A stretch of 64,000 nucleotides of DNA from an uncultured Clostridia bacterium (GTDB lineage: Bacteria; Bacillota; Clostridia; Christensenellales; CAG-138). Under the pieces are notes generated by a model. That model had not been told where the DNA came from. It did not search any database and worked only from the letters and a program-made list of their open reading frames with translations. The stretch is taken from positions 50,592 through 114,591 of the forward strand of contig CAMVMM010000007.1 of assembly GCA_947168565.1 (NCBI GenBank), in the 5' to 3' direction. The stretch's first letter is position 1, and every line of letters begins with the position of its first letter. Of the stretch, positions 6,833-26,240 are shown one piece after another. A program made the translations under genes and the position numbers.

Positions 6833-7879
6833 TTAATTCAGCGCGTCCTTTAAAACCGAAAGGTTCTTTTCCATAATGCTCAAATACGATGCGCCGTTTT
6901 TCACCTTCTCCATCGTGACAGACTGCATGGAGTCAAGCGTCAGTATCCGCTGATCCTTCGTGGTTGTCGCGTTCCTGATGGTTTCGGCTATTCTGCCGTC
7001 CGAGCTTTCGATCTGCATGATCGCCCTCAGGCCGAGCTCATCCGCCTTGTTTGCAAGAAAAACGATGGTTTCAAAGCTTGCCTCTGTCTCCGCGCTGCAT
7101 CCGGCAAACGCGGCGTAATAATCAAGCGCGTAATCGTCCGTAAGGTAGCGGAACGGGAACCTGTCTCCAAAAAGCAGCGTCCTTATTTTTGCGGAGGAAG
7201 CGGCGGCTTCGTATTCGCCGTCAAGCTTATTAAGCCTTTGGATATACTCTTCCGAATTTTTCCTGTATTCGGCAGCATTTTCGGGATCGATCAAGCAGAG
7301 CTTTTCGGCTATAAAGGCGCAGAACTCGGCCGCGTTGCGAAGCGAGAGCCACACGTGCTCATCGTATTCCGCCCCGCCATGCTCATGCTCATCCCCCTCA
7401 TGCTCATGCTCGTTTTCATGCTCATGCTCGTTTTCATGCTCATGCTCGTTTTCATGCTCATGCTCATGCTCATGCTCTTCCTGCATGCCCTCCTTTATTT
7501 CCTCCTGCTTCACCTTATCGCCGAGCACGTCCATAAGGTTCACCACGACCATATCCTTTTTGACCGTGCTTTTCAGCGCCTCCCGCACCCAGCTATCGGA
7601 TTCGCCGCCCGTGTAAATCAACATATCGCAGGAGGAGATTTTGACGATATCCTCCGCCGACGGCTGAAAGCTGTGCAGATCCACGCCGCTGTCAAGAAGC
7701 AGGGTGATATCCGCATTCTCCGCGCGGCTGCCCAATATATTTTTGACCCAATCGTATTGCGGAAAAACGGTGACAACGATGCTGAGCCCGCCGTTCTGTT
7801 TTGTGCCGTTCGTGCCGCATGCCGCCGGTACCGATGAAACCAGCAGCAGGCAGAGAAGTGTGGTAAAAAATCTTTTCAT
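6833..7879 (-). CDS. znuA: Zinc-binding lipoprotein of ABC transporter (ZnuA)
   Basis: 348 residues. Signal peptide with lipobox SSVPAAC, then the cluster A-1/SBP_bac_9 fold: VVTVFPQYDWVKNILG, the metal-ligand segment DLHSFQPSAEDI, a flexible acidic-histidine loop (residues about 145-180, repeats of EHEHEN), EHVWLSLRNA, and a C-terminal lobe with SFETIVFLANKADELG. The His/Glu loop is the usual zinc-collecting loop of ZnuA proteins and is encoded by a short tandem repeat (near 7381-7480), so its length is likely variable. It starts one base after the zur stop; AGGAAAGG lies within the end of zur. Substrate: Zn2+ (inferred). Confidence 0.92.
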   Translation of the reverse strand: MKRFFTTLLCLLLVSSVPAACGTNGTKQNGGLSIVVTVFPQYDWVKNILGSRAENADITLLLDSGVDLHSFQPSAEDIVKISSCDMLIYTGGESDSWVREALKSTVKKDMVVVNLMDVLGDKVKQEEIKEGMQEEHEHEHEHENEHEHENEHEHENEHEHEGDEHEHGGAEYDEHVWLSLRNAAEFCAFIAEKLCLIDPENAAEYRKNSEEYIQRLNKLDGEYEAAASSAKIRTLLFGDRFPFRYLTDDYALDYYAAFAGCSAETEASFETIVFLANKADELGLRAIMQIESSDGRIAETIRNATTTKDQRILTLDSMQSVTMEKVKNGASYLSIMEKNLSVLKDALN

Positions 7880-7880
7880 A

Positions 7881-8273
7881 TCAGCCTTTCCTGCATTTTT
7901 CGCAAACGCCGTGCAGCACCGTTGTGCCGCTGTCGACCTCAAAATTTGAATCCCGCCTCACGTTTTCAATGAGCGCGTTTGTGGACGGAATATTCATGTG
8001 GAAGGTTTTTCCGCATTTAAAGCACTCCATGTGCAGATGCTCCCTGCACTCCGGCGAACCCGTATACCTGTAAAAGATGCGCTTGGTGCCCGAAACGGTG
8101 ATCCGCTTCACGCACCCGTTTTTTTCAAGCGCAGACAGATTGCGGTATACGGCGCTTTTGCTGATCGCATCATTGCCCAGCAAGGCGATGATCTGATCCG
8201 CGCTCAGATTCTCGTCCCGATGGCGCTCAAGCGCTTCGATCAATGCCCTTCTTTGCTTTGTGGTGTAGCTCAT
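7881..8273 (-). CDS. zur: Fur-family repressor, probably zinc-responsive (Zur)
   Basis: 130 residues. N-terminal winged helix (LSADQIIALLGNDAISKSAVYRNLSALEKNGCVKR), then the dimer and metal domain with HLHMECFKCGKTFHM and a C-terminal CEKC, the two CxxC pairs that hold the structural zinc in Fur proteins. It is the first gene of the znu operon and is separated from znuA by one base, which points to zinc sensing and autoregulation. The ATG at 8273 has GGGAGG 8 bases upstream. A 9-5-9 palindrome at 8291-8313, overlapping the start of transcription, is its likely own operator. Zinc rather than iron specificity is inferred from context. Confidence 0.88.
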   Translation of the reverse strand: MSYTTKQRRALIEALERHRDENLSADQIIALLGNDAISKSAVYRNLSALEKNGCVKRITVSGTKRIFYRYTGSPECREHLHMECFKCGKTFHMNIPSTNALIENVRRDSNFEVDSGTTVLHGVCEKCRKG

Positions 8274-11567: not shown

Positions 11568-11664
11568 CGTATGCTTTGCGTATTTTTCGCCGCTCTTTTT
11601 CGGAGATACGGCTTAAATAAGCGGGTATAATAAAGCCAGCAAAAAAGCAAAGGGGGTGTTTCAA

Positions 11665-12987
11665 ATGAAACACGGCATTATCAAAAAAACCTTTTCGGCG
11701 GCGCTCTCCATGGCGCTTATCGCCTCCATCGCGGCGCTTGGCGCGTGCGGCATAAGGATCGCGGAGGAAGGCGCAGACGTTCAAGCGGGCGCTCAAAGTG
11801 CGGCGTATTCAAGCACGGTTTCAAGCACGGTTTCAAGCGCGAATACCGCAGAAAGCGCGGACGCTTCCGCATTCACCGCCGCATCGACGGTCTCCACTCA
11901 AACGGAGCTTGCCGCAAGCGCGTTTTCAAGCAGGGATCTTTCGGGCGAATACGATGCACAGGGCGCGGTGCTCATTTCGCTTGAGGGCGGCACGGCAAGC
12001 GCTTCCTCCGAAAGCGTAACCGTAAGCGGCTCCACCATCACCATTACCGCCGCAGGCACCTATATCATAAGCGGCACGCTCGATAACGGCAGCATCATAG
12101 TGAACGCAGGCAAGGAGGATAAGGTGCAGCTCGTGCTGAACGGCGCGAAGATACATTCCGAGGATTATGCCGCGATCTACGTTTTCCAGGCGGACAAGGT
12201 GTTTATCTCCCTTGCGGACGGCACGGAAAACAGCCTTTCAAACGGCGGAAGCTTCACTCAGCGCGATGAACACAACGTGGACGGCGTTATCTACTCAAGG
12301 GACGACGTCACCCTGAATGGCGGCGGCGCGCTTACCATAGCTTCACCCGCCGAAAACGGCATCGTGAGCAAGGATGAGCTTGTGATAACCGGCGGCAGCT
12401 ATTCCGTTACCGCCGGCGGGCACGCGCTTCAGGGCAAGGACAGCATTGCGATCTCGGACGGCAGCTTTACCCTCAGCTCCGGCAAGGACGCGCTGCATTC
12501 GGAAAACTCCGATGACGACGCCCTTGGCACTATATACGTCTGCGGCGGCAGCTTCAATATAAGCGCCGCGGACGACGGGATCCACGCCACCTCGCTGCTT
12601 CAGATAGACGGCGGCAAATTCGAGATTGCGGCGGCGGAGGGGCTTGAATCGACCTATATCCTTATAAACGGCGGCGATATCTCCGTCACATCGGGCGACG
12701 ACGGCATAAACGCCTCGCTCAAATCCTCCGCCTATTACCACACGGTGGAGATAAACGGCGGCAGCATCACCATCTCCATGGCAAGGGGCGATACGGACGG
12801 CATCGATTCCAACGGAAACCTTATCGTAACCGGCGGCGAAATAAATATCACCGGCCAATCCGCCTTTGACTGCGACGGCACCATAACCCACACCGGCGGC
12901 ACTATCACGATAAACGGACGGCAGGCTTCGCAGATAAGCTCCCAAATGACGGGCGGCCGGGGCGGCTTCGGCGGCGGATGGCGCTGA
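11665..12987 (+). CDS. Cthe_2159-like beta-helix carbohydrate-binding lipoprotein
   Basis: 440 residues. Signal peptide with lipobox IAALGAC, a Ser/Thr-rich linker to about residue 80, then a long series of short beta-strand turns (GSIIVNAGKEDKVQLVLNG, ITGGSYSVTAGGHALQGKDS, ISDGSFTLSSGKDALHSENS, SAADDGIHATSLLQIDGG). This is the pattern of the Cthe_2159 family of right-handed parallel beta-helices, which bind polysaccharides such as cellulose or pectin in the characterised member. The tail is Gly-rich (GGRGGFGGGWR). AGGGGG precedes the ATG at 11665; a GTG three codons earlier is an alternative. TATAAT at 11626 may be its -10 box. The stop codon lies inside the first unit of the tandem repeat downstream. 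Confidence 0.8.
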   Translation: MKHGIIKKTFSAALSMALIASIAALGACGIRIAEEGADVQAGAQSAAYSSTVSSTVSSANTAESADASAFTAASTVSTQTELAASAFSSRDLSGEYDAQGAVLISLEGGTASASSESVTVSGSTITITAAGTYIISGTLDNGSIIVNAGKEDKVQLVLNGAKIHSEDYAAIYVFQADKVFISLADGTENSLSNGGSFTQRDEHNVDGVIYSRDDVTLNGGGALTIASPAENGIVSKDELVITGGSYSVTAGGHALQGKDSIAISDGSFTLSSGKDALHSENSDDDALGTIYVCGGSFNISAADDGIHATSLLQIDGGKFEIAAAEGLESTYILINGGDISVTSGDDGINASLKSSAYYHTVEINGGSITISMARGDTDGIDSNGNLIVTGGEINITGQSAFDCDGTITHTGGTITINGRQASQISSQMTGGRGGFGGGWR

Positions 12988-12990
12988 ACT

Positions 12991-13247
12991 CAATCTGCGC
13001 TGAAACGGCAATCGGCGGTTAAACGGCAATCGGCGGTGAAACGACAATCGGCGGTGAAGCGGCAATCGGCACTGAAACGGCAATCGGCGCTGAAACGGCA
13101 ATCGGCGCTGAAACGGCAATCGGTGCTGAACGGCAATCGGCGCTGAAACGGCAATCCGGCAATCGGCGGTGAAACGGCAATCGGCGGTGAAGCGGCAATC
13201 GGCGGTGAAGCGGCAATCGGCGGTGAAGCGGCAATCGGCGGTGAAGC
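12991..13247. repeat. 18-bp tandem repeat, about 14 units
   Basis: The unit is CGGCAATCGGCGGTGAAA, with G/C and A/G variants and two length breaks (near 13130 and 13155). It begins at the stop codon of the beta-helix gene. Because 18 is a multiple of 3, three minus-strand frames stay open and give false six-residue-repeat proteins. The rest of the 541-base gap up to 13528 holds the hairpin and the interspersed repeat listed next. Confidence 0.9.
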
Positions 13248-13290
13248 GGCGCGGCCATGAGGCGCAGAAAAGTGAATATAGATATAGAAA

Positions 13291-13528: not shown

Positions 13529-14860
13529 TCACCACCAAAGCTCAGGGTTTTCGCTGTCGCTTGCAAAGCCGGGCTTATAGATACGGAAAAGCCAGTTGCC
13601 CTCGCCGTCCTTGATGCCGACATACAGCTCGCTATGCGCCACCGCGCGGTCCTCGATGTGCAGCGCGCCGTAGATATCCGCCCTCTCCCCGCCGTGCCGC
13701 TCCGCGGCCGAGGGCTTGTCGATGCGTTCAAACTCCGCATTGTAATAGTTGCCGTCACTTGCCTGAAGATGATCCGCATAGCCCGTGGTGATATACATTT
13801 CATGCTCCGGATGATACCCCTGATAATAGAGCGGCAGAACGCGCTCCATCACAAGCTCGCCCGAAAGCGTGTAAAGATTGATCCTTTCATACGATATCCC
13901 GCCGTCGATCCGCTGCTCCGGCTCCTCAAGGGCTTGGGTGCCGATGATATATTTGCCGCCGAAAACGCCGCAGATCCTTCCAAACGGCGCTGTATCGAAC
14001 TGCGAAAGCACCTCGCCGCTCTCGGAAACCAGCATCGCGCTGTGCGTTGTAAGCGAAAGCCACGGCGTTTCCGCGCCGTAATTGATAGTGCGATCAAGAA
14101 TAAGATACTTGCCGTCTATCTTCACTATTGCTCCGGCGTAGTCCACCTTGAACGCGCGGCGCACTAAGCGCTCCTGCTCCATACCGTTTTCGGTATATTC
14201 CGTGCGCAAAAAGGTATACTCCGGCGCGGCGTTCATCAGAGGTGAGGGCTCAAGATCAATTTTCCTTATATCTGTAATAAAAACGTTTCCGCGCGTTTCG
14301 CCCTCCTCATTGATATACTCCCAATACTCGGTCTGTATCATGATATCGCCTAATCTTTGGTATTCCGGCAGGTTCTCGCCCCGCTCTATGCTGTAGCCGT
14401 AGGGCGCGCCGTGCTCGCCGTAGAAGCCCTCTCCGTCCCAATCGGTGTATTCATACTCCGTCCTGTTGAAGGTGGTCACAAGAGTGCCGAAGCGGTCGTA
14501 AACGTAGTGCAGGTCGCTTTCCCCATCCAAAACAAAATACTTCGCGCTCTCCGGAAAAAGCTCGCCGCCTATAAGGTTCCCAAGCCTCACCGCGCCGGGA
14601 AATGCGGGTGTATCCCCCGAAAAATCCGGCGGGAGTGTGGGCCTTTCCTGCGGCCCCGGCGCTGCGGTGGGCGCATCGGTGGGCGCGTCCGTGGGCGCTG
14701 CGGTGGGCGCATCCGTGGGTTTTTCGGTGGGCGCATCGGTGGGCGCGGCGGTTATTTCCGCAGTGGGCGCGGGTGTAGTATCCGGCTTTACCGCCGGAGC
14801 GCAGGCGGAGGCAAAAAGCAGCAGCGCCGCAAGTGAAGCCATCGTCGTTTTTTTATTCAT
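13529..14860 (-). CDS. Array lipoprotein 1 (PT-linker family, unknown function)
   Basis: 443 residues. Signal peptide with lipobox LLFASAC, then a linker of about 45 residues made of APTDAPTEKPTDAPT repeats, then a beta-rich domain. Family signatures are VRLGNLIGGELFPESAKYFV, LDGESDLHYVYDRFG, FDTAPFGRICGVFGGKYIIG, YTLSGELVM and, near the C-terminus, VGIKDGEGNWLFRIYKPGFA ending SDSENPELWW. The domain is not one I can name; the repeated YDxxG..., LDENG... and G-N-W-x-F segments look like blades of a beta-propeller or WG-type repeats (inference). It faces outside and is lipid-anchored. It is the last gene of a run of paralogues on this strand, 24 bases downstream of array lipoprotein 2. Confidence 0.75.
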   Translation of the reverse strand: MNKKTTMASLAALLLFASACAPAVKPDTTPAPTAEITAAPTDAPTEKPTDAPTAAPTDAPTDAPTAAPGPQERPTLPPDFSGDTPAFPGAVRLGNLIGGELFPESAKYFVLDGESDLHYVYDRFGTLVTTFNRTEYEYTDWDGEGFYGEHGAPYGYSIERGENLPEYQRLGDIMIQTEYWEYINEEGETRGNVFITDIRKIDLEPSPLMNAAPEYTFLRTEYTENGMEQERLVRRAFKVDYAGAIVKIDGKYLILDRTINYGAETPWLSLTTHSAMLVSESGEVLSQFDTAPFGRICGVFGGKYIIGTQALEEPEQRIDGGISYERINLYTLSGELVMERVLPLYYQGYHPEHEMYITTGYADHLQASDGNYYNAEFERIDKPSAAERHGGERADIYGALHIEDRAVAHSELYVGIKDGEGNWLFRIYKPGFASDSENPELWW

Positions 14861-14884
14861 TTCCGGTATTCCTTTCGCATTTTA

Positions 14885-16135
14885 TCAGTCGTGGAGCTCA
14901 TCAAAGCCCTCGCTCACTCCCTGTGAATCGTTTGCAAGCCTCGGATCGTAGATACGAAAAACCCAGTTGCCCTTTTCATCCTTTACGCCGGCGTAAACGC
15001 CGTTTTGAACGACTTTATACGGGCAGTTGTAGAATTCATGCAGTATCGAGGTCTGCTCGAAGGACATAATATCCGTATTATGCAGATCGGTGCCCTCCTC
15101 AAGGGTAAAAAGCGTGTTCAGCTCGCCGTCAAGCACCTCACCGCTCCTTGTGACGCAGTGGTCCGCATATAAAAAGCCCCTTCCGAGGCCGTCCCAGTAA
15201 TGGAACCTGCCCCACGCATACGCGCTCGCCCAGCAATCCGTCATCACGCATTCGCCGGAAAGCGTGTATATGTCGTATTTCATATACGAGCCCCAGTCGC
15301 CGGACTCCATCGGATGCTGCTCGACCCCCGCGTTCACAAGCAGGTATTTTTTGCCGAGCACGCCCTCTATTTTATCGAAGCCGCCGAAGGGCGCGGGATC
15401 GAATTCGCCGATATATTCGCCGTTTTCATCCAGCACCTTGCCCTCGGTCACGCTCAATTGCTCGCCGTTTTCCTCCGAAACGCGCGAGGCGATCACAATG
15501 ATCCTGCCGTCCACCGGAAGCACGCCGCCGGATGCGCCAAGCCCGATCGGCCCGTTGGGCTCAAACGTAATGCGCCTTTCAAGCCTTTCATCCCACATGG
15601 CGGTTAAAACAAAGCCGTAATACTCTGAAAAATCGGAGTAGCCCTCCTCATCCTCCCATATCTTTTTAAATTCAAAAACTCTGTTCGCAAAGGTGATGCA
15701 GTTTTCCGGCATCGGCTCGCCGCGCTTTATGCAGTAGCCGTAGGGCACGCCGTATTCGCCGTAAATGCCCGGGCTGTTTGACCAGCAGTTGAAACTCGCA
15801 GTTGCCCGAAACGTGGTGACAAGCTCGCCGAAGCGGTCGTACACGTAGCGAATACCGCTCTCCCCGTCCAGCACGAAATACTTCATGCCATCGGGCAGCA
15901 CGGCTTCGCCGTTCAAAAGGTTGCCCATTCCTCCGGGCGTTGGGAAAACCGGCGCGGCGGTGGGAGCTTCGGTGGGCACATCGGTCGGCGCGGCGGTGGG
16001 TGCTTCGGTCGGCACATCGGTTGGCGCGGCGGTGATCTCCGCCGTGGGTTCGGGTGTATTTTGGGGCTTTACATTTGGAGTGCAAGCCGAGGAAGCAAGC
16101 AGCAGAAGCGCGAATAAAGCTGCGAGTTTTTTCAT
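14885..16135 (-). CDS. Array lipoprotein 2 (PT-linker family, unknown function)
   Basis: 416 residues. The start MKKLAALFALLLLASSAC gives a clean lipobox; the linker is PTAEITAAPTDVPTEAPTAA. The outer domain carries GNLLNGEAVLPDGMKYFVLD, GESGIRYVYDRFGELVTTF, EFDPAPFGGFDKIEGVLG, KYLLVN, YTLSGECVM, TRSGEVLDGELNTLFTLEEG and VYAGVKDEKGNWVFRIYDPR. The upstream in-frame ATG at 16186 is rejected because it would add a non-signal segment and overlap the preceding gene. The first 20 codons and the upstream 45 bases are identical to those of array lipoprotein 3, a sign of recent duplication. Function unknown. Confidence 0.75.
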   Translation of the reverse strand: MKKLAALFALLLLASSACTPNVKPQNTPEPTAEITAAPTDVPTEAPTAAPTDVPTEAPTAAPVFPTPGGMGNLLNGEAVLPDGMKYFVLDGESGIRYVYDRFGELVTTFRATASFNCWSNSPGIYGEYGVPYGYCIKRGEPMPENCITFANRVFEFKKIWEDEEGYSDFSEYYGFVLTAMWDERLERRITFEPNGPIGLGASGGVLPVDGRIIVIASRVSEENGEQLSVTEGKVLDENGEYIGEFDPAPFGGFDKIEGVLGKKYLLVNAGVEQHPMESGDWGSYMKYDIYTLSGECVMTDCWASAYAWGRFHYWDGLGRGFLYADHCVTRSGEVLDGELNTLFTLEEGTDLHNTDIMSFEQTSILHEFYNCPYKVVQNGVYAGVKDEKGNWVFRIYDPRLANDSQGVSEGFDELHD

Positions 16136-16179
16136 GCGTTTATTCTCTCTTTCTCTATGATAGGGCGATTTACCGGTCG

Positions 16180-17433
16180 TCACCATTCATCATCCTCCGT
16201 TATCTCGATCTGCGAATCGCTTGCGAGCTTCGGGTTATAGATCTTGAATTCCCAGTTGCCCGCTTCATCCTTTACGCCGGCGTAAATGCCCTCCTGATCG
16301 ACCGTATAGCCGCAGAGGTCGTTTTTATTATGGAAGATCGAGCCGTATTCGCTCGGCTCGATATTAAAGCTGCTCAGGTCGGTACCCTCGGGCACGGTAT
16401 AGAGCAGGTTGAGATCGCCGTCGAACACCTCACCCTGCCTGTTTATGAAGCAGTTTGCATAGACAAGCCCTCTGCCAACGCCGTCCCAATAGTGGAATCT
16501 CTCACTCGGAATTGCCCAACGATCCCGCAAAACACATTCGCCCGAAAGCGAATAGAGATCGTATTTTACATACCGCCGCCATTCGCGGTCAAGCTCGAGC
16601 GGGTGGAATTCGTCATCCGCTCTTACAAGAAGATATCGGTCTGCGAGCACGCCATCGATCTTATCAAGACCGCCAAAGGGCGCGGGATCGAGATCGCCGA
16701 TGATCTCGCCGTTTTCATCGAGAATTATCGCTTCGGTTTGTGAGATCTGCTCCCCGTTTTCCTCGGTATCCCTTGATGTTATCACGATCAGCTTATCGTC
16801 CACGGGAAGTATGCTGCCGCCGAACCCAAACCCTACGGGGCTGTCGAATTCGATGCGCCCTTCAAGCTTTTTATCCCAAAATGCAGTTAAAACGAAGCCG
16901 TAGTACCCTGCATACTCGGAATAACCTTCCTCATCATCCTCTATCTTTCTGTATTCAAAGAGCCTGTTTGCAAAATCGATGATATTTTCCGGCATCATAT
17001 CGCCGCGCTTTATGCAATAGCCGTAGGGCACGCCGTATTCGCCGTATATGCCCGCAGCATTTGACCAGCAGGTGTAATCATCGGAAGGGGCGGTAAAGGT
17101 CGCTTCAAGCTCTCCGAATCGATCGTAAACATAGTGGATATCGCTCTCGCCGTCCAGCACGAAATACTCCATGCCCTCGGGCAGCACGGCTTCACCGTTC
17201 ACAAGGTTGCCAAGCCTGCCGGGGGTTGGGAAAACGAGCTCAGGCTTCGCCGGAGTACCCGGCGCTTCGGTCGGCACATCGGTTGGCGCGGCGGTGGGTG
17301 CTTCGGTCGGCACATCGGTCGGCGCGGCGGTAATCTCCGCCGTGGGTTCGGGTGTATTTTGGGGCTTTACATTTGGAGTGCAAGCCGAGGAAGCAAGCAG
17401 CAGAAGCGCGAATAAAGCTGCGAGTTTTTTCAT
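16180..17433 (-). CDS. Array lipoprotein 3 (PT-linker family, unknown function)
   Basis: 417 residues with the same first 40 or so residues as array lipoprotein 2 (MKKLAALFALLLLASSACTP and the PTAEITAAPTD linker). Domain signatures: FPTPGRLGNLVNGEAVLPEG, LDGESDIHYVYDRFGELEAT, LDENGEIIGDLDPAPFGGLD, YSLSGECVL, NRQGEVFDGDLNLLYTVPEG, IYAGVKDEAGNWEFKIYNPK. The C-terminus SDSQIEITEDDEW is shared with array lipoprotein 4 to the residue. The 5' leader is near identical to that of lipoprotein 2, and the 3' end matches lipoprotein 4, so parts of the array look copied as units about 1298 bases long. Outside-facing, lipid-anchored; function unknown. Confidence 0.75.
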   Translation of the reverse strand: MKKLAALFALLLLASSACTPNVKPQNTPEPTAEITAAPTDVPTEAPTAAPTDVPTEAPGTPAKPELVFPTPGRLGNLVNGEAVLPEGMEYFVLDGESDIHYVYDRFGELEATFTAPSDDYTCWSNAAGIYGEYGVPYGYCIKRGDMMPENIIDFANRLFEYRKIEDDEEGYSEYAGYYGFVLTAFWDKKLEGRIEFDSPVGFGFGGSILPVDDKLIVITSRDTEENGEQISQTEAIILDENGEIIGDLDPAPFGGLDKIDGVLADRYLLVRADDEFHPLELDREWRRYVKYDLYSLSGECVLRDRWAIPSERFHYWDGVGRGLVYANCFINRQGEVFDGDLNLLYTVPEGTDLSSFNIEPSEYGSIFHNKNDLCGYTVDQEGIYAGVKDEAGNWEFKIYNPKLASDSQIEITEDDEW

Positions 17434-17477
17434 GCGTTTATTCTCTCTTTCTCTATGATAGGGCGATTTACCGGTCG

Positions 17478-18734
17478 TCACCATTCATCATCTTCCGTTA
17501 TCTCGATCTGCGAATCGCTTGCGAGCTTCGGGTTATAGATACGAAAGACCCAGTTGCCCGCTTCATCCTTTACGCCCGCGTAAACTCCATCCTGATCCAC
17601 GGTATAGCTGCAGCGGTAGTTTTCATGGAAGATCGAGCTGTATTCGCTTGGCACGATCTCAAAATTGCTCAGGTCGGTGCCCTCGGGCACGGTATAAAGC
17701 AGGTTGAGCTCGCCGTCAAACACCTCTCCACAGCTGTTGATAAGGCAGTTTGCGTAGAAAAGCTCCCTGCCGAGGCCGCCTGCATATCTGAAGCGATCAT
17801 CCCTCCGCCTCAACCAGCAATCGCTCATGACGCATTCGCCGGAAAGAGCGTAGATATCGTATCTATTATACCTTGACCAATCATCCTCGCGCTCCATCGG
17901 GTGCTTTTGCAGCTCGGCGTTCACAAGCAGATACTTTCCGCCAAACGCGCCCGCGATGCCCTCGAAGCCTCCGAAGGGCTCGGGATCGAACGCGCCCATA
18001 GGATCGCCGTTTTCATCGATCAGCGTTGCTTCCGTTCGATAGACATAGGCACCGTCTTCCCATGACGCCCTGTCTGCGATGACGATAAACTTTCCGTCCA
18101 CAGGGAGTACCGCGCCTTGATCGCCAAGCCCCATCAAGCGGTCGGGTGCCAAATCGATTCGGTTTTCAAGTTTTTCATCCCATATGGCGGTCAGAACAAT
18201 GCCGCTATAATCGGAGAATTCCGAACCCTCGATCCAACGCATTTCAAAGACCCTGTCCGCAAACGGGATAGCCGAAGCGTTCGGGAGCATTTTTCCGAGC
18301 TTGATGCAGTACCCATAAGGCACGCCGTATTCGCCGTATATCCCCGGTTCGTTTGACCAAGACCAATCGAAATCAAAATCCGGCGCAGCGTTGAACACCG
18401 CAGTAATCTTGCCGAAACGATCGTAAACATACTTAAGATCGCTCTCGCCGTCCAGCACGAAATACTCCATGCCCTCGGGCAGCACGGGTGCACCGTTCAC
18501 AAGGTTGCCAAGCCTGCCGGGGGTTGGGAAAACGAGCTCAGGCTTCGCCGGAGTGCCCGGCGCTTCGCTCGGCTTTTCCGTTGGCGCGGCGGTGGGTGCT
18601 TCGGTGGGTGCTTCGGTCGGCGCGGCGGTGATCTCCGCCGTTGGCGCCGGGGTGGTTTTATTGTCAATATTCGGCGCACACGCGGCTTGAGCAAAAAGCG
18701 CAAGCGCACAGGCAAGCACAAAAAGCTTTTTCAC
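17478..18734 (-). CDS. Array lipoprotein 4 (PT-linker family, unknown function)
   Basis: 418 residues from a GTG at 18734, which is preceded by GGAAAGGA; the start is set by the signal peptide VKKLFVLACALALFAQAAC. Longer in-frame ATG starts lie inside the preceding gene. The linker PTEAPTEAPTAAPTEKPSEA leads to the shared domain: FPTPGRLGNLVNGAPVLPEG, LDGESDLKYVYDRFGKITAV, AFDPEPFGGFEGIAGAFGGK, YALSGECVM, NSCGEVFDGELNLLYTVPEG, VYAGVKDEAGNWVFRIYNPK. It ends SDSQIEITEDDEW like lipoprotein 3. Function unknown. A role as an extracellular sensor or binding protein is only a guess from the lipid anchor and propeller-like repeats. Confidence 0.75.
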   Translation of the reverse strand: MKKLFVLACALALFAQAACAPNIDNKTTPAPTAEITAAPTEAPTEAPTAAPTEKPSEAPGTPAKPELVFPTPGRLGNLVNGAPVLPEGMEYFVLDGESDLKYVYDRFGKITAVFNAAPDFDFDWSWSNEPGIYGEYGVPYGYCIKLGKMLPNASAIPFADRVFEMRWIEGSEFSDYSGIVLTAIWDEKLENRIDLAPDRLMGLGDQGAVLPVDGKFIVIADRASWEDGAYVYRTEATLIDENGDPMGAFDPEPFGGFEGIAGAFGGKYLLVNAELQKHPMEREDDWSRYNRYDIYALSGECVMSDCWLRRRDDRFRYAGGLGRELFYANCLINSCGEVFDGELNLLYTVPEGTDLSNFEIVPSEYSSIFHENYRCSYTVDQDGVYAGVKDEAGNWVFRIYNPKLASDSQIEITEDDEW

Positions 18735-18768
18735 AGCATCCTTTCCTTTCGACAGAGCGAATGGTTCT

Positions 18769-20100
18769 TCATTCATCGATCGAGAGATTGTCCCAATACC
18801 ATTGCCAGAACCACTCCGGCCAGCTTTCCCTTCCCAAGCCGTCGTTCGTCGATCTCGGATCATAGATGCGAAATATCCAGTTTCCCTCCCCGTCCTTGAT
18901 TCCGGCATAAACGCCGCTCCGCGTGAATACTCTATCATCCGTGACGATGGGATCGTAAATGCTATCGGGCTTACTGATTTCGACTTCGCTTCCATCCACG
19001 ATATTCAGATCCCTATCGTAATAAACTCCGTTTTCATCAACTATATAGTCGCCATAGATATACGTGATCTCGCCCTTATCGGAGCTATCATCGGTGAAAT
19101 GCCCCGAGATATCAAACGGGCAGCTTCCCTTTTTGACAAGCTCAACATTCTCCATCACCCTTTCGCCGTCAAGAGTGAATATGGCGTTTTCCGCAAAGAT
19201 ATAGCGATCGCCGAAAACGCCGCTGACCTTTCCGAAGGCCATATAGTTTACCGGCTCATCCAAAAAGCGTAGGTTTTCATCGTAAAGCCTTGCATCTCTT
19301 ATGCTTGCGTAGGCGCAAGCATACATTTTTCTGTAATAATCATCATCACCGTAATCAACTGTTGTATCCGGCCATGCGTTTAGAGCAAGATAGCGATCAT
19401 CCAGCTTAAAAATGCAGCCGCATAAGCCGATGCTGCAGGTCTCTGCCGTTATCGGAGGCTCGCCCGTTTCAGCAGCCACTTCTTTAACACTATCCGGATC
19501 GCCCGAAAAGCGCATTGGGTTTTCAAAGGAGATATCGCGCACCTCATATACGTCGAGGCCGTAACGCATGAAGCATTTTCCCTGAAAATAGAACCTGACC
19601 CAATCCACCGAGGTTTTATCCTTCAAGCTGTAGCCATGGCATATCCCGTATGCGCCGTATAAGCCGTGCATATCATCCTGCCCATCCGCATCGCTCATGC
19701 AGCCCGTTGAAAGGAAGGTGTCCACAAGCTCGCCGTTTCTATCGTAAACGTAGTGCAGACCGCTCTCTCCGGGAATAACGAGATACTTCGCGGATTCGGG
19801 GAAGATCTCTCCCTCTATGAGCTTTCCAAGCTGAACAGAGCCCGGGAAGCTCGGCATCTCGCCATAATCCGGCGGCGCTGTGGGTCTTCCGGCGGGCGCT
19901 CCGGTCGGTACTGCCGTCAGTTCCTCGGTCGGGGCTGCCGTCAGTTCTTCGGTCGGGGCTGCCGTCAGCTCATCGGTCGGCGCGGCGGTGATCTCCGCCG
20001 TGGGAGCGGGTGTGGTTTCGGGCTTTTCAACGGTTGCGCAGGCGCAGAAAAGGAGTGTTGCCATACACAGCGTGAGCGCGGCGGTTACTCGCGGCTTCAT
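18769..20100 (-). CDS. Array lipoprotein 5 (PT-linker family, divergent member)
   Basis: 443 residues. Signal peptide with lipobox LLFCAC, then a linker with a clear 9-residue repeat (TAAPTEELT). Shared signatures: VQLGKLIEGEIFPESAKYLV, PGESGLHYVYDRNGELVDTF, AFGKVSGVFGDRYIFAENAI and VYAGIKDGEGNWIFRIYDPR. The centre differs from the other members and has several extra Cys (CSIGLCGCIF). The C-terminus is Trp-rich (WPEWFWQWYWDN). GGAGGG stands 6 bases before the ATG at 20100. It lies 73 bases downstream of the PstS-like gene, with a hairpin between, so it may be partly separated from it. Function unknown. Confidence 0.75.
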   Translation of the reverse strand: MKPRVTAALTLCMATLLFCACATVEKPETTPAPTAEITAAPTDELTAAPTEELTAAPTEELTAVPTGAPAGRPTAPPDYGEMPSFPGSVQLGKLIEGEIFPESAKYLVIPGESGLHYVYDRNGELVDTFLSTGCMSDADGQDDMHGLYGAYGICHGYSLKDKTSVDWVRFYFQGKCFMRYGLDVYEVRDISFENPMRFSGDPDSVKEVAAETGEPPITAETCSIGLCGCIFKLDDRYLALNAWPDTTVDYGDDDYYRKMYACAYASIRDARLYDENLRFLDEPVNYMAFGKVSGVFGDRYIFAENAIFTLDGERVMENVELVKKGSCPFDISGHFTDDSSDKGEITYIYGDYIVDENGVYYDRDLNIVDGSEVEISKPDSIYDPIVTDDRVFTRSGVYAGIKDGEGNWIFRIYDPRSTNDGLGRESWPEWFWQWYWDNLSIDE

Positions 20101-20128
20101 AGTGTTCCCTCCGTATAAAACAGGCTTT

Positions 20129-20150
20129 GAGCGCCGAATGACCGGCGCTC
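20129..20150 (-). terminator. Hairpin between the PstS-like gene and array lipoprotein 5
   Basis: GAGCGCCG, loop GTCATT, CGGCGCTC on the minus strand, followed by AAAGCCTGTTTTAT. The T run is displaced, so termination may be partial. Confidence 0.45.
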
Positions 20151-20173
20151 AATTCAATTATGCTATATTATAA

Positions 20174-21220
20174 TTATTTGTTTACGGTTATGCCCTTCAT
20201 ATAGGGCACGTAGCCGCAGGTTGCCACGAGCGTCTGCCCCTCGGCGGTTTCAAGCCAGTCCACGATCTTCTTCGCGTTCTCGTTCACGTTCGTTTTGGGA
20301 AGGATCGCGTAGAAGGGGTTGATGTAGGGGTATTCGCCCGAGTTGATGGTTTCGTAGGTGGGCTCAACGCCGTTCACGGTGATGAACTTGAGGTTGGGCT
20401 GATTGAACATATAGCTTGCGTAATAAAACACGGAGTAGCCGATGGCGTTCGCGCTGCTGTCGTAGGCGGCGATATCGTTTATAACGTCGCTCATGGTAAC
20501 GGAAACGGTGACCTCCTCGGGATCCGCCATCGGGGTATCCTTCATCACAAGGTCGAGCATAAGGGTTTGGCTGCCGCTGAGAACGGGACGCTGGAACGCC
20601 TTGATCGGCTGATCGAGACCGCCGACCTCCTTCCAGTTCTTTATTTCGCCGCTGTAAATGCCCTTGACCTGCTCCTCGGTGAGGCTCTCCACGGGGTTGT
20701 CCTTATTTACGATGAAAACCAGCGCGTCAAGACCGATGGGGCGCATATCGAAGCGGTTCTTGGGGTCGAATTTCTCCTTGGTGGGCTTGCTTGCCTCATA
20801 CACGAGCAGCATATCCGCCTCGCCCTTATCGAGCGCCTCATAGGAATAATCGGTGGTGCTTACGCCGCACTTCGCCTCAGCCTCCTCCTCGGAGCAGCCG
20901 GTAACGAACCGGATAAGGCTCATGGCAAGGGGGATATTGGCGGTGGAGCCGTCAAAGCGCGGATAATCCTCATAGGAGCACTGCGGGCGCTCGACTGCGG
21001 GCGCATCGGAGGGTGCGTCCGTGGGAGCGTCGGAGGGTGCATCCGTGGGCGCGTCGGTCGGCGCATCGGTGGGCGCGTCGGTGGGCGCGTTCGCGGGCGT
21101 GCTCGTGGGCGCTTCGGAAGCGGGCGCGGGGGTATCGCCGGGCTTATTCTGCACGTTGCAGGAAGCAAGCGCGGCGGCGCAGGCAAGGGCGGTCGTAAAA
21201 GCGATAAAGCGTTTCATCAT
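20174..21220 (-). CDS. PstS-like substrate-binding lipoprotein
   Basis: 348 residues. Signal peptide with lipobox AAALASC, a linker of nine APTDAPSDAP-type repeats (residues about 30-75), then a periplasmic-binding-protein fold of the phosphate-binding (PstS-like) class: DYPRFDGSTANIPLAMSLIR, ADMLLVYEASKPT, PIGLDALVFIVNKDNPVESL, GIYSGEIKNWKEVGG, RPVLSGSQTLMLDLVM. Ligand is likely an oxyanion such as phosphate, but no pstCAB or phoU is adjacent, so transport is not assured; it may sense or scavenge. The linker resembles those of the array lipoproteins on both sides. GAGGAG precedes the ATG; its own promoter is at 21268-21296. Confidence 0.82.
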   Translation of the reverse strand: MMKRFIAFTTALACAAALASCNVQNKPGDTPAPASEAPTSTPANAPTDAPTDAPTDAPTDAPSDAPTDAPSDAPAVERPQCSYEDYPRFDGSTANIPLAMSLIRFVTGCSEEEAEAKCGVSTTDYSYEALDKGEADMLLVYEASKPTKEKFDPKNRFDMRPIGLDALVFIVNKDNPVESLTEEQVKGIYSGEIKNWKEVGGLDQPIKAFQRPVLSGSQTLMLDLVMKDTPMADPEEVTVSVTMSDVINDIAAYDSSANAIGYSVFYYASYMFNQPNLKFITVNGVEPTYETINSGEYPYINPFYAILPKTNVNENAKKIVDWLETAEGQTLVATCGYVPYMKGITVNK

Positions 21221-21267
21221 AATGGTTTTCTCCTCTCAATACGCGGCTTTTGCCGCAAGTCCAGTGT

Positions 21268-21296
21268 ATTTTACAGCAGAATGTCTGTATATTCAA
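21268..21296 (-). promoter_or_regulatory. Promoter of the PstS-like gene
   Basis: On the minus strand TTGAAT, 17 bases, TAAAAT, in the 109-base gap after array lipoprotein 6. Confidence 0.6.
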
Positions 21297-21329
21297 GTGC
21301 TTTTATAAAAATTCATAATTTGTTTATAA

Positions 21330-22487
21330 TTAGCCTATCCTCTTAAACCGGGAGCCGCGCCTTGAATCGCTCGCAAGGGCGGGATTGAAGATTTTAAAGA
21401 GCCAGCTTCCGTTTTCGTCCTTTATGCCCACGTATACGCGCACGGGCTCGGGCGTTGCGCTCTGCCCAAAGAGCGGGGAATAGCTGATGGTGCTGTTGTC
21501 CGAAACAATGAAGCGGTTTTCCACCTCCATGCTGTAATGCATCCGCACGCAGTCCACGCCGCTTATATCCTGCACCGACGCACTCAGCCGGTTCAGGCTT
21601 TGATCAAACATATTGTCGTGCTCGTCATAGACGTAGCTCGCTATCTCAAGCCAGCGGGCGAGCGACGCTTCGGTTATTATGCCGCCGACCGGCATATAAA
21701 ACACCGCCGCGGTCGCCGCCTCTACATTGCCAAGCAGCGCTTCGCCCTGCTGCGAATACACGGTGGTGCAGAAATAATCCTCCTCCGCGCTATCCTGCAC
21801 GGGCGGCCTTGCCAGAATGTATTTTCCGCCGAACACGCCCTCGATATACCCAAAGGGCGCGGGGTCGAATTCTCCGGTGATGTTTCCGTTTTCATCCAGC
21901 CACACGCAGCGGCCGTAGCGAATGGCGCGCCGCGCTCCGTAGCCCTCCTGATCGTATGCCTCCAGCAGCAGGTATTTTCCGCCCTCAAAGGGCAGCACGC
22001 CGCCCGCCGTGCCCGCGCTCAGCCCCTGCGATTTTAACGCTATGGTTTTATCCGTATAGCAGTCCAAAAAATCAACAAGCTCGCCGTCCTCGAAGCGAAG
22101 CATGAGCTGGCCGAAAACGCTGTAATCATCCAGCCGCTTCATAAGGCGGAGGGAAAAATCGCCCACTATGCCGTCCCTGCCGTAGAAGCCGGAAAACAGC
22201 CCTAACGCGGGAAACGCCGCCGCAAGCTCGCCCATGCGGTCGTAGGCATAGTAAAGATCGCCCTCGCCCTTGAGCACGAGGTATTCCGCAGGCTTTGGAA
22301 AAAGCTCGCCGCCTATAAGGTTGCCAAGCCTTCCCTGGGTCGGAAAGCTCAGCGGGGCGGCGGTCTGCTCGGCGGCCTGCGTGGGCTTGGGCGCTTCGGT
22401 TTGCGCACCTCCGCCGTTATTATTTGCGCAGGCAAAAAGTGAAAACGCGGCAAGAAGTGCGGCGGCGATGGCGGCTGTTCTTTTCAT
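21330..22487 (-). CDS. Array lipoprotein 6 (short-linker member)
   Basis: 385 residues. Signal peptide with lipobox FSLFAC, a short linker without the PTAEITAAPT repeats (QTEAPKPTQAAEQTAAP), then the family domain: FPTQGRLGNLIGGELFPKPA, LKGEGDLYYAYDRMGELAAA, LDENGNITGEFDPAPFGYIE, GVFGGKYILA, and VYVGIKDENGSWLFKIFNPA. The C-terminus is SDSRRGSRFKRIG. Its short linker makes it a useful outgroup for the tandem copies. GGAGGG precedes the ATG, and a strong promoter lies upstream at 22534-22562, making this the first gene of the array. Function unknown. Confidence 0.75.
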   Translation of the reverse strand: MKRTAAIAAALLAAFSLFACANNNGGGAQTEAPKPTQAAEQTAAPLSFPTQGRLGNLIGGELFPKPAEYLVLKGEGDLYYAYDRMGELAAAFPALGLFSGFYGRDGIVGDFSLRLMKRLDDYSVFGQLMLRFEDGELVDFLDCYTDKTIALKSQGLSAGTAGGVLPFEGGKYLLLEAYDQEGYGARRAIRYGRCVWLDENGNITGEFDPAPFGYIEGVFGGKYILARPPVQDSAEEDYFCTTVYSQQGEALLGNVEAATAAVFYMPVGGIITEASLARWLEIASYVYDEHDNMFDQSLNRLSASVQDISGVDCVRMHYSMEVENRFIVSDNSTISYSPLFGQSATPEPVRVYVGIKDENGSWLFKIFNPALASDSRRGSRFKRIG

Positions 22488-22625: not shown

Positions 22626-23759
22626 TCACTCGGCGGGCGAAACCTGCACCACCACGTATTCGCAGTAGAAGGCGTTGCGCACGGGCCAGCCCCAGCCCGT
22701 GAAGCCGGAGGAGGTGATATGCGTCATATCCCCGAAGCGGTACTCGCCGTAATTCAGAATGCCCATAAGGCTATGCATCACGGAATAGGGAAAGATCTGC
22801 CCGCCGTGGGTGTGTCCCGAAAGCTGAAGCTCAAAGCCGAGCTCCGCGTTTTTCTCCGTATCAAGGGGCTGATGATCGAGCATCACGCGCATCATGCCCT
22901 CCGGCGCACCGAGAATAAGCTCCTCCGTGCTCGCGCGGCTGCCCACATTCCAGCCGTAATCGCCGCGCCCCACAAGCAGCATTTCGCCGCCCACAACGGC
23001 ATAGTTTTCTTTCAAAATCACTATTCCGTTGTCCGTTACGGCGTTTTCAAGCTCAATATCGCTGAAGGTGCGCTCGCCGTTCGGCAGGTCCACCGTATAG
23101 GGCTGGGTATCGTGGTTTCCGTAAATGAAATAGGTTCCGAATTTGGGCCTGAGCCTGCCCAGATCGGCAAAAACGCCCTGCATATCCTCCTTCGAGGTGC
23201 GCTCGTCCACAATATCGCCGCCAAGCACCACAATATCCGGCGAAAGGGCGTTTATATCGTCCACCGCCTTTGTGAGCAGCGCCTTGTTCTGGATGGTGCC
23301 GTAATGCGTGTCGCTTATAAACACGATTTTATAAGGATTTTTCACATTTTTTGAGGCCACGCGGTACTCGGTTTTAACGATGCGGTTCATGCCGTACAGC
23401 CCGTGGACAAGCAGCAGCGCGAACACCACGGCGGCCAGTCCCCCCGCAAGATAGAACCTGCTGCCGCTCTTTTTAAGCAGCTTGTGAAACACAAATGCAA
23501 GAATATCGGCTATTATTCCGCTCAGCATTATGTAAAACGCCAAAACGCAGCTTGGCGCCCACATATTCAGGCAAAAGGGAATATTCAGCACGGCAAGGAA
23601 GGAGCGCAGCAGGCAGCTTTTCGCGCTGAGCGGGTTTTTGCCGAGCGCACGGATAAGCCCCTTCGTGCGGAAAAAGGTGTACGCACCGCACAGAACGCCC
23701 ACCGCGGCGCCGATAGGAAGATATTCCTCCATATAGCCAAGAGTGAAGAACTGCAGCAT
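22626..23759 (-). CDS. Membrane-anchored metallophosphoesterase (YkuE-like)
   Basis: 377 residues. Four hydrophobic helices in the first 150 residues, then a calcineurin-type phosphoesterase domain with all metal motifs: FISDTHYG, VVLGGDIVDE, YGNHDTQPY and LSGHTHGGQIFP. It cleaves phosphomonoester or diester bonds, on the outer face of the membrane if the topology follows its relatives; the substrate is unknown. The ATG at 23759 has AGGGGG 6 bases upstream. A GTG at 23804 in frame abuts the topoisomerase stop and has no ribosome site. It probably shares a transcript with the topoisomerase gene. Confidence 0.85.
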   Translation of the reverse strand: MLQFFTLGYMEEYLPIGAAVGVLCGAYTFFRTKGLIRALGKNPLSAKSCLLRSFLAVLNIPFCLNMWAPSCVLAFYIMLSGIIADILAFVFHKLLKKSGSRFYLAGGLAAVVFALLLVHGLYGMNRIVKTEYRVASKNVKNPYKIVFISDTHYGTIQNKALLTKAVDDINALSPDIVVLGGDIVDERTSKEDMQGVFADLGRLRPKFGTYFIYGNHDTQPYTVDLPNGERTFSDIELENAVTDNGIVILKENYAVVGGEMLLVGRGDYGWNVGSRASTEELILGAPEGMMRVMLDHQPLDTEKNAELGFELQLSGHTHGGQIFPYSVMHSLMGILNYGEYRFGDMTHITSSGFTGWGWPVRNAFYCEYVVVQVSPAE

Positions 23760-23807
23760 TTTATCCCCCTGAATATCAAATATGTATTGCGTCGTTCGGC
23801 TCACGGC

Positions 23808-26240
23808 TTATTTTTTGATAAGCCCCACCACAACGTCGTCCATCAGCGCCATTACCACGGGCTCGCCCCTTCCGGCGCGCTGATCTATTTTTATTTCCTC
23901 CGTGTTGAAGGGCGTTTCCTTTCCGCTCTTTTGCACGGCGGCAAGCTCAAGCGGCACGGTGACGTGCATGGCTGCGGCGATGCGCGTGCCGTTCGAGCCG
24001 TTCTTTTTGAAGCCGAAGCATTGAAGCCCCTTGCCATTGCGCCCCTGTATATCGTGGTCGAAAACGAAGCTGCGCTTCATATAGCCCCTGTCCGTAACGG
24101 TCAAAAGCTCGCCCTCGTCCGTGATATGGCCTGCAAAGATCACGCGGTCGGCTTCATCAAGCTTTATGCCCTTCACGCCCGCGCTGGCTCTGCCCGTCAC
24201 GGGCACGGAATCCGCCGCAAAGCGTATGCTCATGCCCTTTTCGGTCACAAGCATAATGCTGTCCTCCTCGGCGGGCTCGGGAATGTATTCCACGGCAAGC
24301 ACCGTGTCCCCCTCCTTTAGATTTACGGCGGCTATGCGCTTTGTGCGGGTCACGTACTCCTTTGCCTCGGTGGCCTTGACCATGCCTTGCGCCGTGTGGA
24401 AAAACATAAGCCCGCGAATAAAATCATCGTCAAACGCGCCGATAATGCGCTCCTCCCCCTCCATCTCCACTATTGCGGAAAGGTTGGCGGGCTTTTTATC
24501 CGGCCTGGTTTCCGGAATATCCTCCACGCGCAGCGTGATGAGCGCGCCGTGGCTTGTGAAAAGGCGCAGGCTTCGCTCGGTGGAGCTTGGGAAAACCGCA
24601 AGCGGCTTTTCGGCGGCAAGCAGCTCGGGCGTAACGAGCTTGGGCAAAAGCCTTCTGATCCTGTTATCCGAGAGAAGCAGCACCGTGGCGGGCTCGCTTA
24701 TCGCTTCCTTTGCCTCCTGCTCCACCTCCGCGCCGTCGTCCCCAATGAGCTGGGTTCTTCGCTCGGATCTGAACTGCTCGCGTATCGCGGTCAGCTCGTC
24801 CACTATCAGCGCATGAAGCTTTTTCTTTGATGCAAGGATATCCCTGAGCTTTTTTATCTGCTTTTTTATGTCGTTAAATTCTCTTTCGATCTCAAGCTGC
24901 TCGAGGTTGGTGAGCCTTTGCAGCCTTAGATCGAGGATCGCCTCCGCCTGAAGCTGGGTAAGCTCAAACCGCTCCATCAGCCCTGCCTTCGCCTCCTTGG
25001 GCGATTTTGAGGCGCGAATGAGGGCGATAACCTCGTCTATATTAAGCAGCGCGATCATCAAGCCCTCTAAAATATGGCTCCTGCGCTCCGCCTGCTCAAG
25101 CTCGTTTTGGCAGCGCCTTGTGACCACCTCGTCCTGATGCTTGATATAGTAGTCGATAAGCTCGGTGAGGCTCAAAAGCCTGGGCTTGCCCTCGGCTATC
25201 GCAACCATTATGACGCTTACGGTTTTTTGCAGATCGGAATACTTGAAAAGCGCGTTCAGCACCTTCTGCGGGTCGAAATCCTTCTTGACCTCGATGACCG
25301 CGCGAACTCCCGTTCTGTCGGATTCGTCCCTGATATCACTGATGCCCGCAAACGCGGATTTACTCTTTTGCTGAACGAGCGCAAGTATCTTTTCAAGCGC
25401 GGAGGCCTTGTTCACCTGATACGGGAACTCGGTGATAACGATATTCGTTTTGCCGTTTTTCAGCGGCTCGAAATGCGTTTTGGCGCGGTTGGTGAGCTTG
25501 CCGCGGCCGGTTTCGTATGCGGTGCGGATCTCATCGGACTCTATAAGATAGCCGCCCGTAGGAAAATCCGGGCAGGGCATTATCTTCATAAGCTCGTCAA
25601 GGCCGATTTCGGGATCGTTTATTCTTGCGATCACCGCGTCTATCGCCTCGGTGGGGTTATGCGGCGGTATGGAGGTGGTAAGACCCACGGCGATGCCGTT
25701 TGAGCCGTTTATAAGAAGATTCGGAAGCCTTCCCGGAAGCAGGTCGGGTTCCTTCAATGTGTCGTCGAAATTCAGGCTGAATTTAACGGTGTCGCGCTCG
25801 ATATCGCGCAGCATCTGCATGGCGGCGGGCGTCATCCTCGCCTCGGTATAGCGCATTGCGGCGGCGGAATCGCCGTCCATGCTGCCGAAATTGCCGTGCC
25901 CATCAACCATAGGAAGGCGCATATTGAAATCCTGCGCCATGCGCACCATTGCATCGTACACCGAGCTGTCGCCGTGCGGATGATATTTGCCCAGGCAGTC
26001 GCCCACGATGCGTGCGCTCTTTCTGTGCGGCTTATCGGGCGAGAGCCCCAGCTCCATCATGGTGTAGAGGATGCGCCTTTGAACGGGCTTCAAGCCGTCC
26101 TCAACGCGCGGAAGGGCGCGCTCCAGGATGACGTGCTCGGCGTAGGGCATCATGGACTGGTGCATCACGTCGTCCATGCTCTTTATAATTATGGGGAGCT
26201 TCGGCTCGCGCGGCTCCTGCGGTTGATTCTTCTTTGCCAT
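23808..26240 (-). CDS. Type IIA DNA topoisomerase A subunit (GyrA/ParC-like)
   Basis: 810 residues. The breakage-reunion core has the quinolone-region segment [20 protein letters not shown] (Ser at about 92), and the catalytic tyrosine is Tyr131 in [13 protein letters not shown]. The coiled-coil and exit gate follow (residues about 340-480). The C-terminal beta-pinwheel from about 500 shows repeated blades ([30 protein letters not shown]). I do not find the glutamine-arginine-glycine GyrA box expected in the first blade of a true gyrase, which leans towards a topoisomerase IV-type or divergent subunit. No B subunit gene is adjacent. Ribosome site AAGGAAG precedes the ATG. Confidence 0.88.

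Follow-up and report, generated by a model that had tools for sequence, protein, structure and literature searches.

We examined a stretch of 64,000 nucleotides (the window) from an uncultured Clostridia bacterium of the Christensenellales lineage CAG-138 (GenBank assembly GCA_947168565.1, contig CAMVMM010000007.1), in which a first-pass annotation had described an array of six paralogous lipoprotein genes. The array lies on contig 7 of a draft genome of 2.36 Mb that is 92% complete. Between positions 13529 and 22487, the minus strand holds seven genes: the six paralogous lipoprotein genes and, among them, a gene for a PstS-like substrate-binding protein (SBP), which the annotation had overlooked. 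In the direction of transcription, P0007 (21330 to 22487) is followed by the SBP gene P0006 (20174 to 21220) and then by P0005 (18769 to 20100), P0004 (17478 to 18734), P0003 (16180 to 17433), P0002 (14885 to 16135), and P0001 (13529 to 14860), the last gene of the array. The six open reading frames (ORFs) end where they had been placed; the starts listed for the second to fourth genes were replaced by 16135, 17433, and 18734. Judged from signal peptide and linker, the likely starts are MKK at 16135 (P0002) and 17433 (P0003) and a GTG codon at 18734 (P0004). The longer starts in the ORF list, such as 18995 for P0004, were rejected because they precede the signal peptides. P0005 to P0001 look like one operon because the gaps between them are only 24 to 44 nucleotides, and a minus-strand terminator-like stem after P0001 (13290 to 13323; 15 pairs and a T-rich tail) is the probable end of that operon. 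A similar stem (20127 to 20152, minus strand; 11 pairs and a T-rich tail) lies between the SBP gene and P0005; both stems are consensus matches only. We claim no promoter, since sigma-70-like matches were no commoner in the sequence (8) than in shuffles (7.4).

Each of the six array proteins combines a signal peptide and a cysteine in the expected position with one common domain of about 340 residues. The claim that they are paralogues held up well: all 30 directed pairs of mature domains matched in phmmer at E values of at most 7e-20, compared to 0.021 for the best match among 600 shuffled sequences. Pairwise identity is 60 to 64% within the trio of P0002, P0003, and P0004 and 28 to 36% for the other pairs, and the domain alignment has 38 invariant columns. 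Some details of the earlier description need adjusting. A lipobox was said to be present in all six, and a PROSITE-type pattern fits five of them, with P0004 deviating at position -3; the array proteins are predicted to be lipid anchored. The Pro-Thr-Ala linker is present in P0001 to P0005, whereas P0007 has 0 Pro-Thr (PT)-type units. Several of the quoted sequence signatures are not common to all six proteins (exact FDPAPFGG occurs in one of six, TLSGE in two, and DGES in four).

The annotation could not name the domain, and neither could we: no Pfam, NCBIfam, or PDB sequence match covers it, and Pfam recognizes only the PT linker. PDB searches with the domain, by single sequence and by profile, gave chance-level matches only. 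A PHROGs search gave weak matches in low-complexity N termini and nothing on the domain, and a plasmid search with the domain gave no match. A first scan of genome contigs with one protein as the query returned no domain match, and the six array copies are the only ones found in their own genome. The domain represents an unnamed protein family that our searches found in only one family of Clostridia.

The SBP encoded within the array, P0006, offers the strongest hint at what the array does, and it carries a linker of the same Pro-Thr kind as the array proteins. It matches PBP_like_2 (PF12849) at E = 4.5e-27, and the closest PDB sequence is 4q8r (E = 9.6e-24). P0006 is thus akin to PstS-type SBPs (PF12849, TIGR02136) in its PBP_like_2 match and in its sequence match to PstS structures. 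It differs from them in scoring under the TIGR02136 cutoff (115.3 bits against 206.6, the only TIGR02136 match in its genome), in the lack of a PstC match over the cutoff in its genome, and in being tied to repeat lipoproteins. A PstC profile found a single match of 26.6 bits in the window's own genome, far below the cutoff of 196.45, and the same search was positive in 14 of 14 control genomes. At E = 1e-20, PstC was matched in 28 of 103 genomes of the bacterial family and in none of the 16 genomes of g1 (the window's own genus) and g25 that carry the SBP together with the array domain. Because of this absence the SBP looks transporter-less, and we rejected ordinary phosphate uptake for P0006. 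By comparison, ordinary PstS genes adjoin PstC in all four family genomes for which both searches gave coordinates (G004, G020, G023, and G024). The pocket motif of the SBP, with a DG near the N terminus and an R plus SGSQ, is fully conserved across all 19 aligned SBPs, from which it is likely that the protein retains a ligand. Compared with the phosphate motif of 4q8r, the R and SG are kept and the neighboring positions are changed.

Profiles built from the six copies, and then from 32 copies, were searched against the 103 family genomes, all drafts. The domain was found in 18 of these: eight in g1, eight in g25, one in g15 (G044, a weak match at E = 7.1e-5), and one in g18 (G027). When 396 genomes sampled from the whole order were searched, all eight matching genomes belonged to the same family. 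Similar arrays do recur, with six copies in the window and in G002 and seven matches each in G007 and G008, counting fragments and one interrupted copy; G003 and G034 have two copies, and most of the others have one. The alignments (A3 and A4) omit a broken G008 copy, truncated G007 copies on contig C167, and a split G010 copy. One array copy in G008 (L044:13236-14438) is interrupted by an in-frame stop, and the single copy of G010 (L047:7135-8247) is matched in two pieces, which could reflect a frameshift, an assembly error, or a true break.

The SBP class accompanies the domain in 18 of 18 genomes. The two are encoded by neighboring genes in 17 (8/8 in g1, 8/8 in g25, and G044). In G027 they are fused: each of three ORFs, 675, 768, and 728 residues long, encodes the SBP first and the domain second. 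An hhalign comparison of the array domain with the fused G027 domains and the G044 domain gave a probability of 98.8 and an E value of 1.3e-16 over 226 columns. Within g1, the SBP (E < 1e-130) is present in all eight genomes with the domain, and no hit of that class was found in the three genomes without it (Fisher P = 0.006). In g25, the pair occupies at least four different neighborhoods, always in the order SBP and then domain. In g1, the genes come immediately after parC, or with one other gene in between, and are followed by a block with nth- and obg-like genes; these names, like those of the two genes given next, come from reading the sequence. In the window, the parC-like gene (topoisomerase IV subunit A, 23808 to 26240, minus strand) is this fixed neighbor, and a metallophosphoesterase-like gene (22626 to 23804, minus strand) lies between it and the array, with a similar gene at that place in G002. 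Three genomes without the domain (G001, G004, and G005) have an empty slot, with a distance of 1.4 to 1.8 kb between parC and obg. The far side is rearranged in the window, since its obg lies on another contig. Co-occurrence, adjacency, and fusion are the classic signs of two proteins with a joint function, and we infer from this linkage that the SBP and the domain come into physical contact.

Partnership with repeat proteins extends beyond this one domain family. A profile of 19 SBPs (A6), some of which were picked because they adjoin the domain (G027 and G044), was used to collect 46 SBP-class places scoring at least 150 bits in the 396 order genomes, with at most six candidates scored per genome. 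A repeat partner, adjacent or fused, is firmly identified at 24 of the 46 places and at 28 when weak matches are included. The firm partners are the array domain (10 places), WG repeats (5), LRR_5 (7), DUF5050 (1, fused), and YARHG (1). The five WG partners over the Pfam cutoff are in G076, G201 (contig C61), G086, G151, and G348, the WG gene of G086 lying about 500 nucleotides from the SBP. Among the weak partners are WG matches in G170 (24.4 bits), G406 (22.7), and G243 (19.4), against a cutoff of 25.6, and a fused DUF5050 match in G201 (contig C82; 14.1 bits, cutoff 27). By contrast, none of seven ordinary PstS loci has a repeat partner, and their neighbors are the Pst permease, ATPase, PhoU, and two-component genes. 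Among the 57 ORFs around these control loci, no WG, LRR, or DUF5050 family appeared in the best 25 of 35 Pfam families, and none appeared in four local tests by profile or sequence. The difference between the two kinds of loci has a Fisher P value of 0.01 for firm partners and 0.003 for the wider count, based on a small control set and on related genomes that are not independent.

The BspA-type LRR_5 proteins (leucine-rich repeats [LRRs]) and the DUF5050 proteins thus occupy the same genetic position as the array domain, either next to this SBP class or fused with it. They differ from it in being unrelated repeat folds, and they have no match among the six window proteins. In family f4 of the order, the SBP class lies beside BspA-type LRR proteins, mostly with bacterial SH3 domains, in seven genomes (L154 to L157 and L162 to L164). 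At one locus of G170 (L150:5795-8785), two neighboring WG-type genes lie beside one SBP and may represent a second, independent small array. In G027, which has at least six SBP-class proteins, one member of the class is fused to a YARHG domain (L101:4159-5703).

The earlier annotation had guessed that the domain is made of beta-propeller or WG-type blades, and our comparisons lend support to the WG-type version of this guess. WG repeats form propellers. The domain ends in a unit that reads G-x-Y-x-G-x-K-D-x-x-G-N-W, and the WG partner proteins have a similar ending. For a WG test profile, we used only the C-terminal 75 residues of seven WG-type partners from distant genomes. This profile matched 17 of the 32 array-family copies at E < 0.01 and none of the 32 reversed copies. 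Four of the six window copies were among the matches (P0002 at 6e-5, P0005 at 2e-3, P0004 at 4e-3, and P0003 at 7e-3), as were all four fused or G044 domains. Across 1668 ORFs, the other matches at E < 0.01 were the seven seeds, a gene beside one seed (L150:7478-8785), and a WG fusion (L174). Six internal units can be marked in the domain. Unit pairs 3-4, 1-3, and 5-6 match at E values of 1.1e-5, 4.8e-4, and 4.5e-3, compared to 7.6e-3 for the best internal match among 150 reversed or shuffled controls; 12 of the 15 unit pairs do not stand out. The likeness of the last unit to WG partners, together with internal repeats above the controls, suggests that the domain is probably a divergent WG-type repeat domain folded as a propeller. 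It has in common with WG_beta_rep (PF14903) the C-terminal unit G-x-Y-x-G-x-x-D-x-x-G-x-W, and WG proteins occupy the same position beside the same SBP class. Unlike WG_beta_rep, the six window proteins have no match to PF14903 at E ≤ 1, nor do the 32 aligned copies at E ≤ 0.1, and the rest of the domain is a family of its own. The window's genome also encodes, outside the window, one classical WG repeat protein (G000:C15:16623-17375, in a 435-residue open frame).

In a tree of the 32 copies, P0007, P0001, and the trio of P0002 to P0004 each define a well-supported clade that also includes one copy from each of G002, G007, and G008. The main paralogues are therefore older than these species. 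P0007 has orthologues in three other species (support 100/99), three other species each have a single orthologue-like copy of P0003, and P0005, the fastest-evolving copy, sits unplaced at the end of a long branch. We rejected a recent tandem duplication of the whole set, as only P0002, P0003, and P0004 are recent by the tree. Leaders and domains have been reassorted by recombination between copies. In P0002 and P0003, the first four 60-column windows of the alignment (100 nucleotides of upstream DNA, signal, and linker) are 97 to 100% identical, and the following ones are 55 to 92% identical. A G008 copy (L044:6806-8134) combines the domain of one G007 copy with the leader of a second. Gene-wide ratios of nonsynonymous to synonymous substitution rates (dN/dS), in a sample with one genome per species, are 0.11 to 0.36 in 19 of 19 pairs. 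This range led us to reject gene-wide positive selection. Given this range, and as most paralogues are old and have orthologues common to several species, a rapid form of the diversification that the annotation had suggested is not supported. A comparison of the window with G002 gives identities of 90% for the SBP, 93% for ParC, and 38 to 78% for the best domain matches. Between the window and g25, SBP identity is 69 to 72%; domain identity, compared in one genome (G034), is 33 to 37%.

We propose, with a probability of about one-half, that the orphan SBP and a variable set of lipid-anchored, WG-type propeller recognition domains form a joint surface module. The six array proteins would be lipid-anchored extracytoplasmic recognition domains, each a divergent WG-type propeller of about six units on a flexible PT stalk where one is present, and they would act jointly with the PstS-like lipoprotein whose gene lies among theirs. 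The SBP, lacking a phosphate permease, would be the constant, ligand-binding half of the module. The propellers would be its variable half, docking the SBP to different surface targets or letting it respond to them.

Several observations weigh against this proposal. Within a genus, the linkage of SBP and domain is partly shared descent, and the genomes compared are drafts of 53 to 96% completeness. Two genomes with the SBP-domain combination, G027 and G044, do carry PstC, elsewhere in the genome. P0001 (E = 0.12) and P0007 (E = 0.41) fail the WG C-terminal profile, and direct profile comparison with the WG partners gave a weak result for the domain (probability 9.5 over 31 columns) and a moderate one, confined to the last unit, for the fused domains (probability 61.2 over 52 columns). 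Finally, 18 of the 46 SBP-class places are without an immediate repeat partner. When 78 ORFs neighboring these places were scanned, considering the best 25 of 104 families, two of the places had a repeat protein close by but not adjacent (an LRR protein at L161 and a DUF5050 protein at L113). The remaining partnerless places encode mostly membrane-anchored SBPs of about 400 residues.

The nearest precedent comes from mycobacteria, and it suggests a different role for such a complex. According to PMC12802301, FecB, a transporter-less SBP lipoprotein, copurified in Mycobacterium marinum with a WD40-propeller lipoprotein (MMAR_1667/Rv3035) and the arabinosyltransferase AftB. An SBP-propeller complex is therefore already known in principle. 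By analogy, the complex here could scaffold a membrane envelope enzyme, such as a glycosyltransferase, with no part in nutrient capture, and here too an apparently transporter-less SBP is tied to a putative propeller lipoprotein. We nevertheless consider a scaffold unlikely, as no envelope enzyme is a constant neighbor in the gene-called loci, and a variable set of six or seven domains per SBP is a poorer fit to a scaffold for a single enzyme. The invariant pocket described above points to a retained ligand, whereas the pockets of FecB and LpqZ are described in that paper (PMC12802301) as poorly conserved. The mycobacterial system is also set apart, by that description, in its FecB-type SBP, its WD40 propeller, its single-copy partner, and the enzyme in the complex (PMC12802301).

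Alternatively, the array proteins could be variable surface antigens or adhesins whose diversity arose under pressure from immunity, phages, or targets, with the SBP an incidental neighbor. Tandem paralogues on PT stalks, copy numbers of one to seven per genome, and the reassortment of leaders and domains in P0002/P0003 and in the G008 copy would all suit such a role. The low dN/dS in every pair and the retention of copies as orthologues in four species speak against it, and the single-copy states and SBP fusions are left unexplained, so we regard it as rather improbable. It is very unlikely that the SBP scavenges phosphate for some other permease, with the array proteins as accessories. The PstS-type fold suggested by sequence and the partly conserved phosphate motif would fit such scavenging, but the family's ordinary PstS genes adjoin PstC in every genome compared, and the pair-bearing g1 and g25 genomes gave no PstC match, in a search that did not extend to a different permease.

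If the joint surface module is correct, it may apply more widely, and we extend it only tentatively: a Clostridia surface module might pair one transporter-less PstS-class protein with interchangeable repeats (WG, the array family, DUF5050, BspA-type LRR, and YARHG). It is possible too, and to us somewhat doubtful, that one SBP serves as many as seven propeller lipoproteins, with leaders and domains reassorted among them; ligand capture would then stay constant while target recognition varies. In the open-licence PubMed Central literature, we found no paper on the pairing of SBPs with repeat proteins. Gut Clostridia commonly encode orphan SBPs as well as WG, LRR, and DUF5050 repeat proteins, hardly any of which has an assigned function. 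Were the rule of a constant SBP and variable repeats true, the role of one pair would inform many unnamed surface proteins. It would also provide, after FecB, a second case, independently assembled, in which an SBP gave up transport and joined a propeller-type protein.

The region next to the array has features of its own. Beyond the end of the array, the window contains an 18-nucleotide tandem repeat of about 15 copies (12991 to 13250; consensus CAATCGGCGGTGAAACGG), which separates the array from a gene on the plus strand (11656 to 12987) that faces it. This gene encodes a lipoprotein-like protein with a Cthe_2159 carbohydrate-binding domain (PF14262, E = 3.3e-82) and sits behind a pair of genes read from their sequences as a response regulator and a histidine kinase. 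Farther along, a minus-strand gene (6833 to 7942), likewise named by sequence reading, encodes a metal-ABC-type binding protein with a long His-Glu-rich stretch and is followed by ABC ATPase and permease genes.

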